Assembly (NCBI GenBank): GCA_040754375.1
Contig: JBFMCT010000003.1
Span: 1 to 64,000 of the forward strand
Length of the DNA stretch: 64,000 nucleotides
Source of the DNA: Actinomycetota bacterium
Lineage (GTDB): Bacteria; Actinomycetota; Acidimicrobiia; Acidimicrobiales; AC-14
Direction: 5' to 3'
Made by a program: the position numbers and the translations under genes. This document shows positions 413 through 9,192 of the stretch, one piece after another (position 1 is the first letter of the stretch; every line of letters starts with the position of its first letter). The notes beneath the pieces were generated by a model that did no database searches, was not told the DNA's origin, and saw nothing but the letters and a program-made list of their open reading frames with translations.

Positions 413-814
413 TTAGACGGGCCCTCGGCATGTCAGCGTCGGTAAAGCGCACGCCGCCACCGCATCATCGGCAGGCTTACGCTGAGCCGCGACGATGCGA
501 TCTCGAGAGGGATGTCCACACATCAGCGCTCCGACCACGACCGACATGGCGTGCAGCACGGCCGTCGCCAAGCTGATCCCGACCAGGATCGGATACGGCC
601 GATAGCGGCTCGCGAAGACGAACGCCATGAGTTGGCTGTTGTCGCCGAGCTCCCCGACGAAGATCACTCCGAAGCTCACAAGCAAGGCGAGCAAAGGGGT
701 CGTCCGGGTAGCTGCCCCGAGGAGTGGGGCTGCCTCGACCGGGCATCGACGTGCGATGCCGGTCGAAGGTCTGCTCCTGCTACCGAAGCAGGCCCGGGGA
801 CCGGCGCTCGTCAC
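413..814 (-). pseudogene. GDT1/TMEM165-family (UPF0016) cation transporter, half gene
   Basis: The middle of this reading frame reads LLALLVSFGVIFVGELGDNSQL and then a second hydrophobic stretch ending in SVVVGALM. This matches the first half of GDT1/UPF0016 proteins, which carry an E-x-G-D-K/R-S/T motif and move Mn2+ or Ca2+ across membranes. Family members have two such repeats in about 190-220 residues. Here only one repeat is present and the sequence after it is not hydrophobic, so the gene looks truncated or frameshifted. The usual K/R of the motif is N. The first ~40 codons are unlike the family; a TTG near 704 could be the real start. It is probably non-functional. Confidence 0.6.
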
Positions 815-1002: not shown

Positions 1003-2268
1003 TTACGTTGAGACGCCCGAGGTGGCCGCTGGTTCCGGAGCACGAACACTTCCCGTCGCCGGACCCGGGGCCAGCTCCGATCGGAAGGCCCCGAGCCCGA
1101 CGAGCGCCGCTACGACAGCCGCTGCGGCGAAGATCGTGAGCGCAGTTCCGAAGCCGAGCGGTAGCAGTGCCTGGAACACGAGGCTGCCTGTCCCCAAGCC
1201 CATGAAGAGCGTGAAGACGTTGAGCGCCATCGCTTGGCCACGGTTCGGGGACAGGTCGGTGACGATCCCCGCGAGAAGCGGCTGGGTGAGGTCGTAGCCC
1301 AAGGACAGCAATGCCACCGCGAACACGGCGAGTCCGACGGGGATGGACACCGCAAGGACGCCAGCTGCGATCGCAGCAACCGTGAGTCCCAGCGGTATGA
1401 GCCGCGCTCTGCCTCGCTCGTCAGCGAGGCGGCCGACCAGAGGGCCGAGGAGGAAGCCAGGGATCCCGTAGCCCAGTAGGGCGAAACCGATGCCTGCCTC
1501 GCTCAGCGCGTAACGGTCGACCAGGTAGACACCGAGCCAGGTGTAGATCCCTGCGTGTAGGACTGCGTTGAACAGCACGTACGCGTACGTCCGTCGGGCG
1601 CGTCGAGCTCGCAACAGCGCCAGGTAGCTCCGGGCGACCGCGCGGACTGGCCGAGGCTGAGCCGCTGGACGGTTGCCGAGAAGGCGGCGATGACGCCAGA
1701 GCACGGTCAGGACCCCGGCTCCCAACGCCGAGACGATGAGGTACAGGCCCCGCCACCCAACGGCCGGCTCGAGGAGCGCTCCAGCGCTGGAACCGACCGC
1801 GATCCCTCCCGCCATGGCGCCGAACACCCATCCGAGGGCGTGACCCCGTCGTTCGAAGGGAAACACGTCGCCGACCAGGGCCAAGGCGATCGGGACGATG
1901 CCGCTGGACCCGATGGCGATGAGCGCTCGTGCACCGAGGAAGCCGCCGGCGCTATCGGCAAGTGTCGCCAGGGCAGTCAGCGCCACGAAGGCGCTCATCG
2001 ACCCAAGGATCACCTGGCGTCGACCGACTCGGTCCGAGAGCGGTCCCCACACCAGCACCATGGCGCCGTACGGGATGAGATAGGCGGGCTCGATGAACCC
2101 CATGAAACGCGGAGTGACGTCGAAGATCTCGGCGAGGACGGGGATCAACGGCGCCACCATGAATGCCTGGAAGAACACCAGGAAGGTCGCCGCCGTGAGC
2201 ACGCGTAGGAGGCGACCAAGCTGCGCTGCTGGCAGTGCGTCCTGACGGCCGTCGCGGCTACCGATCAC
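1003..2268 (-). CDS. MFS transporter, 421 aa
   Basis: This is a 12-helix major facilitator superfamily transporter. After a short N-terminus (IGSRDGRQ) it alternates hydrophobic helices with the loop motif GPLSDRVGRRQVI between TM2 and TM3, the signature of MFS drug and metabolite exporters. A related GRLADERGRARLI loop follows in the second half. The open frame runs further upstream, but that part overlaps the ATPase gene. The GTG at 2268 starts 2 bases past the ATPase stop and is the sensible start. It is last in a copZ-like/ATPase/MFS operon and was probably acquired with it. Its substrate cannot be read from sequence; metal-linked efflux is inferred only from context. Confidence 0.85.
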   Translation of the reverse strand: MIGSRDGRQDALPAAQLGRLLRVLTAATFLVFFQAFMVAPLIPVLAEIFDVTPRFMGFIEPAYLIPYGAMVLVWGPLSDRVGRRQVILGSMSAFVALTALATLADSAGGFLGARALIAIGSSGIVPIALALVGDVFPFERRGHALGWVFGAMAGGIAVGSSAGALLEPAVGWRGLYLIVSALGAGVLTVLWRHRRLLGNRPAAQPRPVRAVARSYLALLRARRARRTYAYVLFNAVLHAGIYTWLGVYLVDRYALSEAGIGFALLGYGIPGFLLGPLVGRLADERGRARLIPLGLTVAAIAAGVLAVSIPVGLAVFAVALLSLGYDLTQPLLAGIVTDLSPNRGQAMALNVFTLFMGLGTGSLVFQALLPLGFGTALTIFAAAAVVAALVGLGAFRSELAPGPATGSVRAPEPAATSGVST

Positions 2269-2270
2269 TG

Positions 2271-4721
2271 TCAGGCCTCGGAGGCGGCGGGCCCGGTGCG
2301 GCCGACGCTGCCGATCGCCTGGAACAGCAACGATGGCCGCCCGCCGAGGGAGTTCACGAAGATCGTGGTGACCGAGAGCGCCATGGCGATCATCGCCCAA
2401 ACGGGCTGGACGAGCCCGGTCGCGGCGAGCGGGATGCCGATGCCGTTGAACACGAAGGCAAGGGCGACGTTCTGGCGCGTGCGGCGGTAGCTCGACCGGC
2501 TGATCTCCCGCGCGGTGAGCACGGCCGAGACGTCGTCGCGCAAGATGATGACGTCAGCCGACTCCACAGCGATGTCGGTGCCGCCGCCCATAGCGATGCC
2601 GACGTCGGCCTGCATCAGGGCGGGGGCGTCGTTGATGCCATCACCCACCATCGCCACTCGGTTGCCATCGGCTTGGAGGCGACGAACGATGTCGGCCTTC
2701 CCATCGGGCAGCACGGCGGCGTGGACGTCATCGATCCCCACGCGCTCGGCCACGGCGCGCGCTGTCTCGGCATTGTCCCCGGTGACCAGGATGGGCTCCA
2801 TGCCGACGGCCCGCATCCTCCGGACCGCCTCGGCGGCGTCGGGTCGGAGCTCGTCCCCGAGTGCGACAGCGCCGACGAACACGCCGTCGACGGCGACGGC
2901 CGCGACGGTGTGGCCGCCCCGCTCCAGCGGTTCAATGACGGCATCAATCTCGTTCCCTGTGACGTTCCGATCCGCGAGGAACTGCCGGCGGCCGACAAGC
3001 ACGTGACGACCGCCGATCGTCGCATCGACACCGAACCCGGTGACGGATTCGAAGTGCTCGGCGTCCGCGACGGGGAGGCCGCGAGACCGCGCGGCGTCGA
3101 CGATCGCCCGAGCCAACGGGTGTTGGGACGGGCTCTCGGCGGCGGCGGCTAGGGCGAGTAGGCCCTCGGCTGAGCCACCGGTGGCCGGCATGACTTCGCG
3201 CACGACAGGTCGGCCCTCGGTGAGGGTGCCCGTCTTGTCGAGCACGACCTTGCGAATCTCGCCGAAGGTCTGGAACGCCTCGCCTGTACGCATGATGACG
3301 CCTAGGTCGGCGGCTTCGCCGGCTGCTCGCACGATGGCGAGCGGTGCCGCGATCCCAACTGCGCACGGGTAGCCCATGACGAGCACGGAGATGCCGGCGA
3401 ACACGGCCCGGCGGACGTCGGGCTCTCCGTCGAGCAGCGCGGACGCGGCGAGCCAGGCGACAAGTGCACCGGCCGCGACCAATAGGACCGTAGGCGTGTA
3501 GACCCGCAGAACCCGGTCGACGAGGTGGAGGATGCCGGGCTTGAGCGCTCGGGCGTCCTCGACGTGGCGGACGACCTGGGACAAGAAGCTGTCCGCACCG
3601 ACGCGCACCACCCGCACGACCAAAGTGCCGTCACCATTGATCGACCCGCCGATCACCTCATCGCCGACGGAGCGTTCGACAGGCACGGGCTCGCCGGTCA
3701 CCAGCGCCAGATCGACGGCGGAGTGGCCGCTCTTCACCTGGCCGTCGACGGGGATTCGCTCGCCGGGCCGGATTCGGACGAGGTCGCCGAGCTGGACTTC
3801 TGCGATCGGGACGTCGCGCTCGCGCCCGTCGCGCACGACACGAGCCGTATCGGGTTGCAGGTCGAGCAGCTTCTTGACCGCCTGGCTCGACCGAGTCTTG
3901 ACCAGCAGGGACAGCCACTCCGAGAAGATGTGGTAGTTCGCGACCAGCACGCTCACCGCGAAGAACGGTGCCGTCGGGTAATCGTCGAGCACGCCGGTGA
4001 GGCCGACGATGCCGCCGACAATGCCGGCGAAGGCGCCGACCTCTAACAGGACGTGCTGGTTGAGGATCCCGCGCCGACCCGACTGGTACGCCATGCGCAG
4101 GATGTGGGGTGCCACGCCGAACACGACCGCGAGCGCCAGAGCACCGGTAATCCAGCCCGCCGCAGTCTCATCGATGGCCCCCGTGGCGCGGCCGGCGATC
4201 GCCAGGGCGGCAGGGGCGACGAGCGCGAACGCTCCGCCAAGCGCGCTGCCTCGGCCCGCGGGGCGCAGGATCGCGTAGGCAACCGGGACCATGAGCACCA
4301 CGACCGAGGCCGGCACGAGCACCGACCACACACCCGTCACGTTCGCTATGAGAGCGATCGCAGCCAGACTGGCGCCGGCTGCCACAAGGAGGCGCTGACC
4401 CTCGCGAACGAGGTCGGCCTCCTCTTCCTCGAAGGGCCGCAGCTTGCGCGGGTCGTAGAGGTCGTAGCCGATGTCGCGCAGGATGGTCAGGATGTCGGCC
4501 GGCGCGATGACCCTCGGGTCGTAGTCCACCAGCGCCTGCTCATGGGTGAGGCTCACCGCCACCTTGTCCACGCCAGCCTCGCGACCCAGCGCCTTCTCGA
4601 TCGTGCCGGTGCACAATGAGCAGTGGAGCCCAGCGATGCGCGCGCGGATGCGGGCGCGGCCCTCGAGGTGGCTCGGCTCCTCCGCCCAGAGCTGCTCCGT
4701 GTCCGGCGCAACGGTGCTCAT
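2271..4721 (-). CDS. P1B-type heavy-metal-translocating ATPase with YPC motif, 816 aa
   Basis: The protein pumps a transition-metal ion across the membrane using ATP. It begins with one HMA domain (GLHCSLC, Cys34 and Cys37), then transmembrane helices from about residue 108. Next come the actuator loop TGEP (342-345), the phosphorylation site DKTGT (Asp495), the SPSQHP nucleotide-binding His (534) and the hinge GDGIND (693-698). The metal-binding helix carries Tyr451-Pro-Cys453 where copper ATPases have CPC. The last helices have FN (758-759) and MALSV (780-784) rather than the YN and MxxSS typical of Cu(I) pumps. Metal specificity is therefore uncertain. The ATG overlaps the stop of the CopZ-like gene (ATGA), so the two are translationally coupled. 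Confidence 0.93.
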   Translation of the reverse strand: MSTVAPDTEQLWAEEPSHLEGRARIRARIAGLHCSLCTGTIEKALGREAGVDKVAVSLTHEQALVDYDPRVIAPADILTILRDIGYDLYDPRKLRPFEEEEADLVREGQRLLVAAGASLAAIALIANVTGVWSVLVPASVVVLMVPVAYAILRPAGRGSALGGAFALVAPAALAIAGRATGAIDETAAGWITGALALAVVFGVAPHILRMAYQSGRRGILNQHVLLEVGAFAGIVGGIVGLTGVLDDYPTAPFFAVSVLVANYHIFSEWLSLLVKTRSSQAVKKLLDLQPDTARVVRDGRERDVPIAEVQLGDLVRIRPGERIPVDGQVKSGHSAVDLALVTGEPVPVERSVGDEVIGGSINGDGTLVVRVVRVGADSFLSQVVRHVEDARALKPGILHLVDRVLRVYTPTVLLVAAGALVAWLAASALLDGEPDVRRAVFAGISVLVMGYPCAVGIAAPLAIVRAAGEAADLGVIMRTGEAFQTFGEIRKVVLDKTGTLTEGRPVVREVMPATGGSAEGLLALAAAAESPSQHPLARAIVDAARSRGLPVADAEHFESVTGFGVDATIGGRHVLVGRRQFLADRNVTGNEIDAVIEPLERGGHTVAAVAVDGVFVGAVALGDELRPDAAEAVRRMRAVGMEPILVTGDNAETARAVAERVGIDDVHAAVLPDGKADIVRRLQADGNRVAMVGDGINDAPALMQADVGIAMGGGTDIAVESADVIILRDDVSAVLTAREISRSSYRRTRQNVALAFVFNGIGIPLAATGLVQPVWAMIAMALSVTTIFVNSLGGRPSLLFQAIGSVGRTGPAASEA

Positions 4722-4939
4722 CGCTCGGCCGGGTCGGAGCGTTCATAGCCAGCGTCCGCCAGGCGGCTAGCGATCGTCTCGGCCGTGACGAGGGACGGGT
4801 CGTACTCGAGGCGGATCACGCCGCTTTGGTGGTCAGCCTGGACGCTCTGCACGCCGTCGAGGCGGCCGAGAACCGAGGAGATGCGCTGCTCGCATCCGGT
4901 GCAGTTCATCCCGGTCACGGTCAGGGAAAGCGGTGTCAT
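4718..4939 (-). CDS. HMA-domain metallochaperone, CopZ-like, 73 aa
   Basis: This small soluble protein is a single heavy-metal-associated domain: a beta strand, then VTGMNCTGC with both metal-binding cysteines, then the two helices and strands of a ferredoxin-like fold, ending in DAGYERSD. Such chaperones carry Cu(I) or a similar ion to the partner ATPase, whose gene overlaps the end of this one. I chose the ATG at 4939 rather than the longer frame to 4990, because GAGGAG lies 8 bases upstream of it and the longer frame would run into the regulator-binding palindrome. It is the first gene of the operon controlled from the divergent MerR promoter. Confidence 0.88.
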   Translation of the reverse strand: MTPLSLTVTGMNCTGCEQRISSVLGRLDGVQSVQADHQSGVIRLEYDPSLVTAETIASRLADAGYERSDPAER

Positions 4940-4974
4940 GCCATGCTCCTCATGGGGAGAGTGTGCTTGTCTGC

Positions 4975-5006
4975 ACGGTAGACCTTCCATCCGGATGGAA
5001 GGTCAA
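4975..5006 (-). promoter_or_regulatory. MerR-type promoter and 24-bp operator for the metal operon
   Basis: Positions 4981-5004 are a perfect 24-bp palindrome with half-sites GACCTTCC and GGAAGGTC, the form bound by CueR/ZntR-type regulators. On the minus strand TTGACC (5006-5001) is followed after 20 bases by TACCGT (4980-4975). This is the stretched spacer that MerR-family activators correct by twisting the DNA. A transcript starting near 4968 would give the CopZ-like gene a leader of about 30 bases. The MerR gene lies divergently at 5099, so one site can serve both genes. Confidence 0.87.
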
Positions 5007-5098
5007 GACTAGAGTGCGGCCTCATGGATGACACCGAGGCGACCCGGCACGAGCCGCCTACCCTTCCGCCTGAAGGGAATGTTGGAACGGAGACGCGG

Positions 5099-5515
5099 AT
5101 GCGGATCGGCGAGCTCGGCAAACGGCTGGCAGTGAACCCGAAGACCATCCGGTACTACGAGGGCATCGGCCTGCTCCCCCAACCCGAGCGCACGGCCTCC
5201 GGCTACCGCACCTACGACGAGGAGGACGTCGAGCGACTCACCTTCATCAAGGCCGCGCAACGGCTCGGCATCACGCTCGACGAGATCCGCGAGATCCTCG
5301 CCTTCCGGGAGAGGGGCGAACGACCGTGCAAGTACGTCCGTCGCGTGCTTCGCCGCGAAGTGGCCGAGATCGACCAGCGACTCGCCGACCTCACTGCCCT
5401 TCGGGACGAGCTCGTCGCACTCGAACGAATGGCCGACCAGCTTCCGGAGTCACGGCCTGGCACCTGTGGGCTGATCGATCATGTCCGCCAGCGGCAAGGC
5501 GCCCTGCCGACGTAG
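5099..5515 (+). CDS. MerR-family heavy-metal-responsive regulator, 138 aa
   Basis: This is a metal-sensing transcriptional activator. The N-terminus MRIGELGKRLAVNPKTIRYYE is the winged-helix DNA-binding domain, followed by GYRTYDEEDVERLTFI and a long dimerisation helix. Candidate metal ligands are the Cys in ERPCKYV at the start of the dimer helix and the Cys in PGTCGL near the end, similar in placement to MerR/ZntR. It lacks the paired C-terminal cysteines of CueR. The frame also allows an ATG at 5024. I prefer 5099 because family members begin at this motif and GGAG lies 6 bases before it. It is divergent from the chaperone/ATPase operon and should act at the palindrome between them. Confidence 0.9.
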   Translation: MRIGELGKRLAVNPKTIRYYEGIGLLPQPERTASGYRTYDEEDVERLTFIKAAQRLGITLDEIREILAFRERGERPCKYVRRVLRREVAEIDQRLADLTALRDELVALERMADQLPESRPGTCGLIDHVRQRQGALPT

Positions 5516-6138: not shown

Positions 6139-6215
<77 letters not shown>

Positions 6216-6242: not shown

Positions 6243-9143
6243 TTAAGGGGTGGGGGTCAAGAGGCAGCGGCAGCCAGGGTGGGCGGGTGGGTGGACCTGG
6301 CCGGTGGGGTACTCCTCGCCCTTGAGCACGGTGCCGGCCAAGGTGTTGTCGTCGCAGTCGGGGCAAGGGGCGTCGTCGTCGACGACCCAGCGGAGGGTGG
6401 ACCCCGGCGGATAGGCGGCGTAGGCGCCCCGGGAGAACGCCAGCACGGCGTGGTGGCGCACCAGCGGTTCGATCTCCTGGATGCGCCACTGCCGGTAGAC
6501 CCCACTGACGGCATCGGAGGCCTCGGGCCCGTCGCCGTCGCCAGCGGCCTGAAGGGCTCGTTCGAGCCGGGCGTGCAGGGGACCGGCCAGGGCCTCGGCC
6601 AAGGCACGGGCCACGTCGGCACCGGCCGAGCCCGCCGAACGGGCCTCGCTGGCGCTGGGGTCGGCGAAGCGGACGCCGGCTCGTACCGCGTCCTCCACGA
6701 CGGCGGTCACTTCCTCGCGATAACGGGCAATCTGGTCAGCTAGGGCCGGCAACGCGGGCGCGGCCCCGGCCCTCCCGCCGCGGCGGAGGCGGTCGAGCAC
6801 CTCGTTCTGCTCGTCCTGCAGCGTCCTCTTGAGCTGCCGGCCGATGGCATCCTCGGCCGGTTCGAGCAGCTCATCGCGCCGGGAACGGGCGCGCTCGTCC
6901 ACGACGGAGGCCGGCGTGGGCCGCTCGCTGGCCTCGTTCGGGGTGGCGTCTGCGGCCGGCTCCCGCGGAACGGGGGCGGTGGCACTGGCGGCCCGGGCGT
7001 CGGCCCGGTCGGCCTTGATCTGGGCGAACAGGGCGTCCACCCGGTCAGCCTCGGGGGCGGTCGTCGCTCCGGAGGTACCGCTGGCCGACGGTCCCGCGGG
7101 CGTGGCGGTGGCCGGCGATGGCGCGGGCGCCGGCCGTACGGGCGGCGATGGCGCGGCCGTGGCGGTGGGGGACGGGGCCCCGGTGGACCTGGCCGTGATG
7201 CGGGGTGGGGGCGGCGGGACGGGCCGCGGCAGGATCGAGGGACGGGCGCGAGCCTCCGGCTCAGCGGTCCGGCCTGGGCCGCCGGCCAGAACAGTGAGGG
7301 TGCGCCCCGGACCTCCACCACCCGGGTCGCCACCCGGCTCTCCTCCGCCGGGACCGGTCGATCGCCCACCCAGGGCCGTGGGCGGCGTGACGACCGAGAG
7401 CGTCGGCCCACCCCGCTGGGAGATCGTGCTGTCGGCCGGGGATGTGGCGGCCAGCGCTCTGGCGGGCACGCCGGCGGCGCTCAGGCCACCGGGCTCGCGC
7501 CCTGCTGGTGCATCGGCCGTGAGCCCGGCGGCCGGGTCCCCGGCACCCGTGTTCCGAGGGGAGCCCCTGCCCGTCGGCCCTTCGGCTGGGTGCTCGGTAC
7601 CCGGGGCCGACGCCCGACCGCCTGCGGGCCATCCCGCTCCAGCCGGCTCGATGGACCGTGTCCCGGCGGGCGGGCCGGCGGGCGGGCCAGCGGGCGGGCC
7701 GGCGGGCGAGACGGGGGCCCCAGCGGCCGTCAACGCGAGCGACGACTGGGCGGCGTCATCGGTGTCCGCAGTGTTCGAGGTTGTGGCGGTGCCGGCGGAC
7801 GCGCCTTCAGGCGGGGGGGAGCCGGCCGGCCTGGACGTGCCCGGGCCCGACCCAGGGGTGCTCAGGGCGGGACCCGCGGGACCGGACGGGCCTGCTGCTG
7901 CGGACCCGGCCGCGGCGGCCGCTGTCGTGGCCGCGATGTGAGGGTGGGACGACCCGCCGGGGCCAGTCGTCCCGGCGGGGTCGGACCGCACCTGGTCGGT
8001 GGATGCCGCGGCCGCCGGGGGCCAAGCGGTGGCCGGGCGGGTTGGGGACGACGAGGGCGGGCGACTGGAGCGGGCCGGGAGCGGCGCGCCGGCGTCGCGG
8101 CCCCCCGCACCACCCGGCGACTGCGGCCCGGTGACCGGGTCGCGACCCCCCGCACCACCCGGCGACTGCGGCCCGGTGACGGGGTCGCGACCCCCCGCAC
8201 CACCCTGCGACTGCGCCGCGGTGACGGGGTCGCGGCCCGACGCACCGCCCGGCAACTGCGGCCCGGTGACGGGGTCGCGGCCCCCCGCACCGAGGGGCGA
8301 CGGCCCGGTGACGGTCCCGCGGCCGGCGGAGCGGCCCGGCGGCGCCGAGCCCGGCGGTGGGGGCGGTGGCGGCGGGGGCGGCTCGGGGGCACGGCGCTTG
8401 ACCTCGTCGGCGGCCAGGCGGGCCTCGACCTCGGCCATCTTCAGTTCCTGAGTGGCCTCGTCGAGGGTGCGGCGCACGAGGGCGTAGGCCGACAGGAGGC
8501 GTTCGCGGGCCGCCCTGAGCTGTTCGAGCTGCACCTCGGCCACGTGCCGGCGCCGGGCCAGGTCGGCCAGGACCCGCTCGCGCAGGGCCCGGGCTTCGGC
8601 CACCATGTCCCGGCCTCGCACCCGGGCGGCCTGCATCTCGGCCTCGGCGTCGGCCTTGGCCTGGTCACGCAGGGCCCGGGCGTCGGCCTCGGCCGCGTTG
8701 CGCAGCTTGGCCGTTACCGAGTCGACCTCGTCGACCCGCCGGGCCAGCAGGCTGTCGGCCTCCGACCGGGTGCGGCTGACCTGGGCCTCGGCGTCGCGGA
8801 CGAGCCGGGAGGCTTTCTCCTCGGCCTCCTCGCGGATGGCCATGGCCTGCTCGCGCGCCGCCGACAGAAGGCGGGCGGCGTGCTCCCCGAGGGCGTGGGT
8901 GAGCAGGTCCTCGTCGAGCTCGGGGTGGTCGGCCCGGGTCTGGACCTCGGCCAGCATCCGCCTCAGGTCGGCCTCCCGCTCGGCTGCACCGGCCAGCTCC
9001 TCGCTGACCCGCCGGAGGAACGACCGGACCTCGCCGGGGTCGTAGCCCCGGAAGGTCGAGGTGAACGTACGGGTCGCGACGTTGTCGGGCGTCACCACCG
9101 GCCCGGACGTGATTACCCGCTCGGGGTGCATACCGGACACCAT
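6243..9143 (-). CDS. DivIVA-like coiled-coil protein with phage MuF-like C-terminus, about 966 aa
   Basis: This is a three-part protein with no family match I know as a whole. Residues ~20-55 (RTFTSTFRGYDPGEVRSFL) match the DivIVA/Wag31 N-terminal domain that senses membrane curvature at cell poles. Residues ~60-250 are a long Ala/Glu/Arg coiled coil. About 250-700 is a low-complexity Pro/Gly/Ala linker with tandem repeats. The last ~200 residues are helical and end in APCPDC, GEEYP and HPPAHPGCRC. That is the Cys/His signature of Phage_Mu_F-type minor head proteins (Cys 927 and 930, His 955, Cys 958 and 960). It follows the FecR-like lipoprotein gene by about 50 bases. The start could instead be TTG 9149 or ATG 9131. 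Confidence 0.85.
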   Translation of the reverse strand: MVSGMHPERVITSGPVVTPDNVATRTFTSTFRGYDPGEVRSFLRRVSEELAGAAEREADLRRMLAEVQTRADHPELDEDLLTHALGEHAARLLSAAREQAMAIREEAEEKASRLVRDAEAQVSRTRSEADSLLARRVDEVDSVTAKLRNAAEADARALRDQAKADAEAEMQAARVRGRDMVAEARALRERVLADLARRRHVAEVQLEQLRAARERLLSAYALVRRTLDEATQELKMAEVEARLAADEVKRRAPEPPPPPPPPPPGSAPPGRSAGRGTVTGPSPLGAGGRDPVTGPQLPGGASGRDPVTAAQSQGGAGGRDPVTGPQSPGGAGGRDPVTGPQSPGGAGGRDAGAPLPARSSRPPSSSPTRPATAWPPAAAASTDQVRSDPAGTTGPGGSSHPHIAATTAAAAAGSAAAGPSGPAGPALSTPGSGPGTSRPAGSPPPEGASAGTATTSNTADTDDAAQSSLALTAAGAPVSPAGPPAGPPAGPPAGTRSIEPAGAGWPAGGRASAPGTEHPAEGPTGRGSPRNTGAGDPAAGLTADAPAGREPGGLSAAGVPARALAATSPADSTISQRGGPTLSVVTPPTALGGRSTGPGGGEPGGDPGGGGPGRTLTVLAGGPGRTAEPEARARPSILPRPVPPPPPRITARSTGAPSPTATAAPSPPVRPAPAPSPATATPAGPSASGTSGATTAPEADRVDALFAQIKADRADARAASATAPVPREPAADATPNEASERPTPASVVDERARSRRDELLEPAEDAIGRQLKRTLQDEQNEVLDRLRRGGRAGAAPALPALADQIARYREEVTAVVEDAVRAGVRFADPSASEARSAGSAGADVARALAEALAGPLHARLERALQAAGDGDGPEASDAVSGVYRQWRIQEIEPLVRHHAVLAFSRGAYAAYPPGSTLRWVVDDDAPCPDCDDNTLAGTVLKGEEYPTGQVHPPAHPGCRCLLTPTP
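7664..7709 (-). repeat. 12-bp tandem repeat coding for Gly-Pro-Pro-Ala
   Basis: Almost four copies of a 12-bp unit (GGCGGGCCGGCG and variants) lie head to tail inside the linker of the DivIVA/MuF-like gene. In frame they encode repeated Pro-Ala-Gly-Pro. The unit is a multiple of three, so copy-number change would preserve the reading frame. Confidence 0.75.
8091..8320 (-). repeat. 45-bp tandem repeat, about five copies, in the linker region
   Basis: About five head-to-tail copies of a 45-bp unit encode a 15-residue motif of the form DPVTGPQSPGGAGGR. The copies near 8100-8190 are nearly identical, while the outer ones have drifted. Neighbouring copies differ by whole units and keep the frame, so the linker length is probably variable between strains. 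Confidence 0.88.
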
Positions 9144-9192
9144 CGCCAAGAGCGTACGCCCGCGGCCCGCGAAATCGGTGGAGGGCCCGCCC

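Follow-up and report, generated by a model that had tools for sequence, protein, structure and literature searches.

The window analysed here is a stretch of 64,000 nucleotides of DNA from an Actinomycetota bacterium. In its operon an HMA chaperone gene, a pump gene and an MFS transporter gene follow one another in that order, with a MerR-family gene divergent from them. The features of the locus are as follows:

5024 to 5515, plus strand: MerR-family metal regulator, divergent, with a possible start at 5099.
4982 to 5003, no strand: candidate operator, perfect over 22 bp, ACCTTCC-N8-GGAAGGT; the full dyad is ACCTTCCATCCGGATGGAAGGT.
4718 to 4990, minus strand: free HMA metallochaperone (CopZ-like), first gene of the operon, with an ATGA overlap with the pump start.
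2271 to 4721, minus strand: P1B-type ATPase of the YPC group, an open reading frame of 816 aa with intact catalytic motifs and one N-terminal HMA domain (CSLC).
4182 to 4331, minus strand: insertion in the pump, residues 131-180, predicted to form two membrane helices (131-155 and 157-180).
3363 to 3371, minus strand: Y451-P452-C453 in place of CPC, at a break between predicted helices 436-449 and 453-472.
2445 to 2450, minus strand: F758-N759 in place of YN.
2370 to 2384, minus strand: M780-A-L-S783-V784 in place of MxxSS.
1003 to 2268, minus strand: MFS transporter, third gene of the operon, with a likely GTG start at 2268, two bases past the pump stop.

A sequence-only reading of this DNA had pointed to the YPC, FN and MALSV residues of the pump, its HMA domain, the chaperone and the operator, and all of these are present at the positions listed; the continuation of the operon into the MFS gene and the insertion at about residues 131-180 are new here. 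Elsewhere in the window, a tRNA-Met lies at 6139-6215 (minus strand), and a 968-aa frame at 6243-9149 (minus strand) starts with a DivIVA domain (PF05103), is rich in Pro and Gly over a long middle part and ends in a tail that contains Cys. A frame of only 133 aa at 413-814 (minus strand) matches a GDT1/TMEM165-type transporter (PF01169); it looks truncated, and by eye three downstream frames do not continue the match.

By its motifs and HMA domain, the pump is a P1B-type ATPase. It exceeds the cut-offs of PF00122, PF00702 and PF00403, the last matching at residues 28-87, where the N-terminal HMA domain carries CSLC, and a C-terminal HMA domain is absent. The motifs D495-T499 (DKTGT), T342-E344 (TGE), H534-P535 (HP) and G693-P700 (GDGINDAP) are invariant in a 22-row alignment. 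Structure searches with the whole pump as the query returned known P-type ATPases, and a fold search aligned it with the AfCopA E1 structure at 40% identity over 616 columns. The pump also exceeds the cut-off of the TIGR01511 copper model (453 vs 397 bits), which favours a copper or silver exporter, namely an additional CopA whose Cu(I) site is rebuilt on one Cys, Tyr, Asn and Met and which works in parallel to the canonical pump. Such an exporter is possible; it draws further support from the CPC pump (L001) and the CPH pump (L004) of the same genome, which lie close together on a different contig (G000:C24), and is weakened by a score that passes the cadmium-model cut-off as well (377 vs 313.5 bits).

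To place the pump among its relatives, 42 YPC proteins were gathered, the window's among them. A scan of 296 genomes of the same phylum gave ten matching places in nine other genomes at 55-64% identity, the remainder being at 44% or below, and YPC is present in all ten (the tenth being L040). A scan of named genomes yielded at least 13 further YPC members among the matches listed: three from Actinomycetota, eight or nine proteobacterial, one of which is assigned to Myxococcota, and one from a Methanonatronarchaeales archaeon. Among plasmids, 38 records fell under 1e-120, and YPC was found in 19 of the 19 examined. One and the same search supplied the named YPC loci and, as controls, the CPC loci L060-L126; both sets are lower bounds, and the controls are rich in Bacillota.

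A first tree, midpoint rooted and built without the motif columns, took in 38 of the 42 YPC rows (four short or broken ones were left out) and 47 of the 91 CPC rows. The 38 usable YPC rows form one clade (SH-aLRT 100) adjoining the CPC P1B-1 copper pumps, and a branch with a support of 100 separates the window pump and the YPC rows from 23 ZntA-like rows. The YPC clade is on the copper side of the P1B tree, another point in favour of copper or silver, and the window pump is not in the P1B-2 (ZntA/CadA) group. This position outside the ZntA-like half of the tree argues against the export of a different soft or borderline ion (a Pb, Cd, Zn, Au, Sb or Bi species), which we regard as improbable. 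In a second tree, containing 20 YPC rows and the CPH pump of the window genome, the YPC clade received 100/100 and the CPH pump fell outside it; no clear sister group of the clade emerges there. The window pump has neither the CPC (sixth helix) nor the CPH motif by which P1B-1 and P1B-3/CopB pumps are recognised, and it also departs from the P1B-1 signatures YN of helix 7 and MxxSS of helix 8. We rejected the idea that its odd residues are peculiar to this single gene or due to a sequencing error, since the residue changes are clade-wide. The phylogeny that the sequence-only reading had proposed as a check thus puts the pump in a clade defined by YPC and not in a characterised Cu(I) subgroup, and we found no characterised member of the clade. 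Compared with P1B-1, P1B-2 and CPH types, the window gene is placed by its sequence in a distinct and widespread branch of metal pumps that occurs in bacteria and archaea and has been little studied.

The residues along the metal path are given here in the numbering of AfCopA, for which M158, E205, D336, C380, C382, Y682, N683, M711, S714 and S715 are discussed in a published study (PMC9433437). Counts refer to readable rows. The 42 YPC proteins were selected on that motif and the 91 main controls on CPC plus MxxSS, so that selection partly accounts for C380Y and for what the controls show at 380 and 715; it does not bear on the other positions. Met158 is Gln in 39 of 39 YPC proteins (Met in 90 of 90 controls), Glu189 is a non-acid in 39 of 39 (Ala in 31), and Glu205 is Ser (37) or Ala (2) in 39, compared with Glu in 89 of 90 controls. 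Cys380 is Tyr in 42 of 42, by selection. Tyr682 is Phe in 40 of 40, giving FN for YN (Tyr in 91 of 91 controls, all with YN), and Ser715, the second Ser of MxxSS, is lost in 40 of 40 (Val in 37, Ile in 2, Leu in 1). Two histidines appear, at Asp159 in 37 of 39 and at Leu198 in 39 of 39, the latter also in 12 of 90 controls. Retained are Asp336 (40 of 41), Cys382 (42 of 42) and Asn683, Met711 and Ser714 (40 of 40). The HMA columns read CS(L/F)C in 39 of 39 proteins, and the column of residue 60 of the window pump holds His without exception, also in 39 of 39 (36 of 37 in a looser motif search).

As judged from these alignments, six copper-path residues (M158, E189, E205, C380, Y682 and S715) change together, and positions 159 and 198 become His. 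Since replacing M4-M6 residues of AfCopA by Ala abolishes the Cu-ATPase activity, according to the same study (PMC9433437), the changes in the YPC proteins would not be a small drift of the copper site, and their clade-wide occurrence at six Cu(I)-path positions speaks against a copper or silver exporter. The two entry-site histidines would suit another soft or borderline ion, whereas in the YPC alignment the last two helices have acquired no charged residue that is fixed across the clade, which weighs against such an ion. The sequence-only reading had seen a copper- or soft-metal look with a different metal or oxidation state as a possibility; what stands of the first part is a soft-metal-type system in general, and the coordinated change of the path makes a different substrate plausible.

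The insertion separates a part of the clade from the rest. The window pump has 131 residues between the end of the HMA domain (residue 90) and N221; this linker measures 128-131 residues in 18 YPC members and 79-88 in the 21 other readable ones (three were unreadable), and none of 115 other pumps has a linker above 111. In the window's subclade the insertion amounts to about 48 residues and is hydrophobic, and in the tree the 17 rows with a long linker coincide exactly with a single subclade (support 87). CopA has two helices in the corresponding stretch. An AlphaFold2 model (13 sequences, mean pLDDT 77) shows helices at 96-125, 131-155, 157-180 and 185-203 in the linker, and the window subclade is accordingly modelled with two extra membrane helices, ten instead of eight. 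Among the literature matches listed, we noticed no report of ten-helix P1B pumps.

The MFS gene of the window is of the same kind as those in Pseudomonadota cassettes (366 bits to the Nitrobacter MFS). In a neighbourhood scan with queries taken from YPC loci, score limits set after seeing the matches, unequal flanks and near-duplicates counted separately (L133/L140, L127/L139 and L130/L131), a cassette MFS was present at 10 of 43 YPC loci vs 0 of 67 CPC loci. At nine of these ten loci the pump is of the long-linker kind; at the tenth, L140, it is broken, and the cassette is nearly identical to that of L133. A role of the MFS as a metal transporter, judged from its residues, is no more than possible: there is no conserved Cys in 10 aligned MFS proteins. 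As a separate observation, the YPC pump gene seems broken on two Cupriavidus plasmids (L140 and L141), beside mer genes.

The window regulator has Cys at the places of CueR Ser77 and Cys120 and none at that of Cys112, and by these residues it would not be a Cu(I) sensor of the CueR type (Ser77, Cys112, Cys120). Its best model is CadR-PbrR (107 bits, below cut-off), and the Nitrobacter regulator scores 120.7 bits with a Zn-responsive model, also below cut-off; both scores lean towards export of another soft or borderline ion. In the neighbourhood scan described above, a MerR gene lies within 3.5 kb at 32 of 43 YPC loci vs 3 of 67 CPC loci, and Cys occupies the CueR-77 place in 32 of 36 YPC-linked regulators. 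Cys77 was considered as proof of a divalent-metal or mercury sensor and abandoned, since it is carried by 3 of 3 CPC-linked regulators as well and by the L198 regulator, which lies beside a CPC CopA (PPCAHV).

On the minus strand, the operator region reads TTGACC, a 20-bp spacer and TACCGT, promoter hexamers recognised by eye; a sigma-70 pattern scan of 4900-5100, which allows just 16-18 nt spacers, gave no promoter. The operator pattern with up to two mismatches has 2 sites in the window vs 0.21 expected in shuffles, and with up to one mismatch allowed the 3.51-Mb genome as a whole contains just two sites, and no site of the reversed control pattern. The second genomic site is flanked on one side by a MerR paralogue, identical at 69 of 128 residues, and on the other by a thioredoxin-like gene of 91 aa (PF13192). 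Relatives of the thioredoxin-like protein were detected with phmmer at 10 YPC loci, one at 67.5 bits and nine weakly at 18-24 bits, and at no CPC locus, and in two loci the protein shares one reading frame with MerR. From the second operator site, the relatives at YPC loci and the one-frame cases together, the thioredoxin-like protein probably belongs to the system and its regulon. The frames at L199 4217-5083 and L057 4488-5189, which join MerR to a CxxC thioredoxin-like domain and have a CC pair near the end, are possible sensor-redox fusions.

Sites that resemble the operator in 12-14 of the 14 arm bases are found close to the cassettes of L037, L038, L039, L040, L043, L044, L047 and the Deinococcus plasmid L134, on a simple-shuffle null of mostly 10-11 (12 in 3 of 60, 14 in 1 of 60). 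The best score is only 11 at L041, L042, L048 and L051, and the 12 of L045 falls inside the pump gene. Operator searches of 12 other YPC genomes gave matches with up to one mismatch in 10; the reversed control also matches in 7 of the 12, and therefore only MerR-adjacent sites were followed. The same class of operator is found near an ordinary CPC CopA in the genomes of two relatives, in one of them with merA 2.2 kb beyond, and this proximity to CopA is consistent with a copper or silver exporter.

Co-occurring genes bear on the substrate from another side. MerA over the cut-off was found in 10 of 13 YPC genomes vs 5 of 66 CPC genomes (2 of 36 plus 3 of 30) at E <= 1e-140, a limit that could miss a MerA barely over the cut-off; of the 67-member CPC set, the first 36, which omitted mostly Bacillota, were searched and then the other 30, with L101 left out. 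For the first 36 CPC genomes alone, the difference has a p of 2e-6. Two comparisons over the first 49 genomes gave no clear difference, namely copper oxidase (TIGR01480; 2 of 13 YPC vs 5 of 36 CPC) and the arsenite exporter Acr3 (TIGR00832; 7 of 13 vs 14 of 36); this lack of enrichment of the copper oxidase family counts against copper or silver. Within Pseudomonadota, by our own sorting of titles, MerA is present in 7 of 8 YPC vs 2 of 8 CPC genomes (p 0.04). In the window's phylum the figures are 4 of 10 YPC genomes vs about 21 of 282 others, assuming that all ten YPC genomes are among the 292, and three of these four MerA-positive genomes belong to one MerA-rich family. The window genome itself has no MerA over the cut-off (best 333.7 bits vs 454.45).

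Strict mer genes lie within 6 kb of the pump at 13 of 43 YPC loci (3 of 24 off plasmids) vs 0 of 67 CPC loci in the neighbourhood scan, a linkage that plasmid loci overstate, as plasmid islands gather many metal genes. On four of six haloarchaeal plasmids (Haloarcula, Halobacterium, DL31 and Natrinema) merA is about one to three genes from the pump, and the other two have no merA close to it. MerT and a MerP-like gene follow in the Afipia and Nitrobacter cassettes, and CcdA/thioredoxin genes occur in some YPC cassettes; such neighbours would also fit a pump that loads or imports metal, a very unlikely role in our view, MerR-operator control being what one would expect of detoxification. Some other YPC cassettes sit among copper genes, as a copper or silver exporter would predict, and one Deinococcus operator is followed by a protein whose annotation is four-helix-bundle copper-binding and whose match to the Csp1 model stays below cut-off. 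At L045 8256-13654 (L015 is the same pump), the open frame of the YPC pump runs on to 12302, and after it come genes for a nickel transporter of the NicO type (PF03824) and a regulator of the FUR family (PF01475). DUF7482 (PF24298) genes lie just 3' of YPC pumps at L043 10376-11221 (actinobacterial) and L134 7820-8377 (Deinococcus plasmid). No P1B gene is annotated at 130-180 kb of C. metallidurans pMOL30.

The fold, HMA domain, catalytic motifs, equivalents of D336, C382, N683, M711 and S714 and side of the tree are shared with P1B-1 pumps (E. coli CopA, A. fulgidus CopA, SilP). The differences from them are YPC, FN and MxxSV, the loss of the entry Met and Glu and of Glu189, the gain of two His, the insertion in the window subclade and MerR rather than CsoR neighbours. 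CueR-CopA and ZntR-ZntA systems consist of a MerR-family regulator, a long-spacer operator, a P1B pump and an HMA chaperone, and the window system resembles them in all four; it differs in a regulator with Cys77 like ZntR and without Cys112, in the MFS of the operon and in the thioredoxin-like gene at the only other operator of the genome. With mer systems it shares MerR-type control and, near some relatives, MerA, MerT, MerP or MerB. It differs from them in lacking MerA in the window genome and in an ATP-driven pump, which to our knowledge is not a standard mer component.

A published class table runs from P1B-1 to P1B-7, the last of unknown substrate (PMC7558416). Among the matches listed in a search with most subscription journals outside its coverage, we found no literature report of the clade, the residue set, the insertion or the mercury link; as far as found, YPC has already been printed for two single proteins, CopAL6 and S. 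solfataricus CopA. CopAL6, a metagenomic protein with an HMA domain at both ends, lowered the Cu resistance of an E. coli copA mutant (PMC11082258), which does not fit a copper or silver exporter. It also raised the Cu content of E. coli lacking copA to the highest value, and its authors propose loading or import (PMC11082258). That observation favours loading or import by the window pump too, against which stand the description of P1B pumps as all exporters in another paper (PMC10654040) and the presumptive nature of the membership of CopAL6 in the YPC clade. CopAL6 shares YPC with the window pump and differs in its C-terminal HMA domain; the clade members L013 and L014 are CopAL6-like in that, by eye, another CxxC region follows their last helix. 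YPC is also reported for the CopA of S. solfataricus, a protein tested for Cu resistance (PMC4541151), and YPC alone is therefore weak evidence for a different metal. This report is in tension with a second paper, in which both S. metallicus CopA proteins read CPCALGLA and their cop2 locus shares about 90% identity with S. solfataricus (PMC3595675).

Taken together, the parts, the clade, the residue changes, the operator and the gene association, all established at the level of sequence, lead us to propose, at somewhat under an even chance, that the window encodes an efflux system, induced by metal, for a soft and thiophilic metal ion. The most likely substrate would be Hg(II) or an organomercurial, a choice that we make tentatively; Cu(I)/Ag(I) comes close behind, mercury being slightly favoured over copper. 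In the proposed mechanism, the MerR-family activator would sit on the 22-bp operator, and metal binding would turn on the chaperone, the pump and the MFS together. The HMA chaperone and the CSLC domain of the pump would pass the ion to a membrane site made up of a single cysteine, C453, with Tyr451, Asn759, Met780 and Ser783. At the entry site, where the Met and Glu of CopA are gone, Gln222-His223, His264 and the retained Asp402 would serve instead. ATP-driven E1/E2 cycling would then export the ion, and the thioredoxin-like protein, probably part of the regulon, may keep thiols or the metal reduced.

On the scale of the family, a further and rather doubtful proposal is that an unnamed P1B subfamily of bacteria and haloarchaea, often plasmid-borne, evolved from copper pumps into dedicated Hg(II)/organomercurial exporters with a one-cysteine, tyrosine-containing site, and that one branch, including the window's, gained two helices and took on an MFS protein as partner. 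A 'copper' label assigned automatically to genes of this kind is thus without proof. Since the sorting of P1B pumps by metal relies on a few membrane residues, a clade in which six such residues have changed in concert, together with the co-occurrence of mercuric reductase, would be a naturally occurring test of how these pumps encode their choice of metal. The plasmids of Nitrobacter hamburgensis, Afipia carboxidovorans and Haloarcula marismortui are named carriers in which the substrate may be tested directly.
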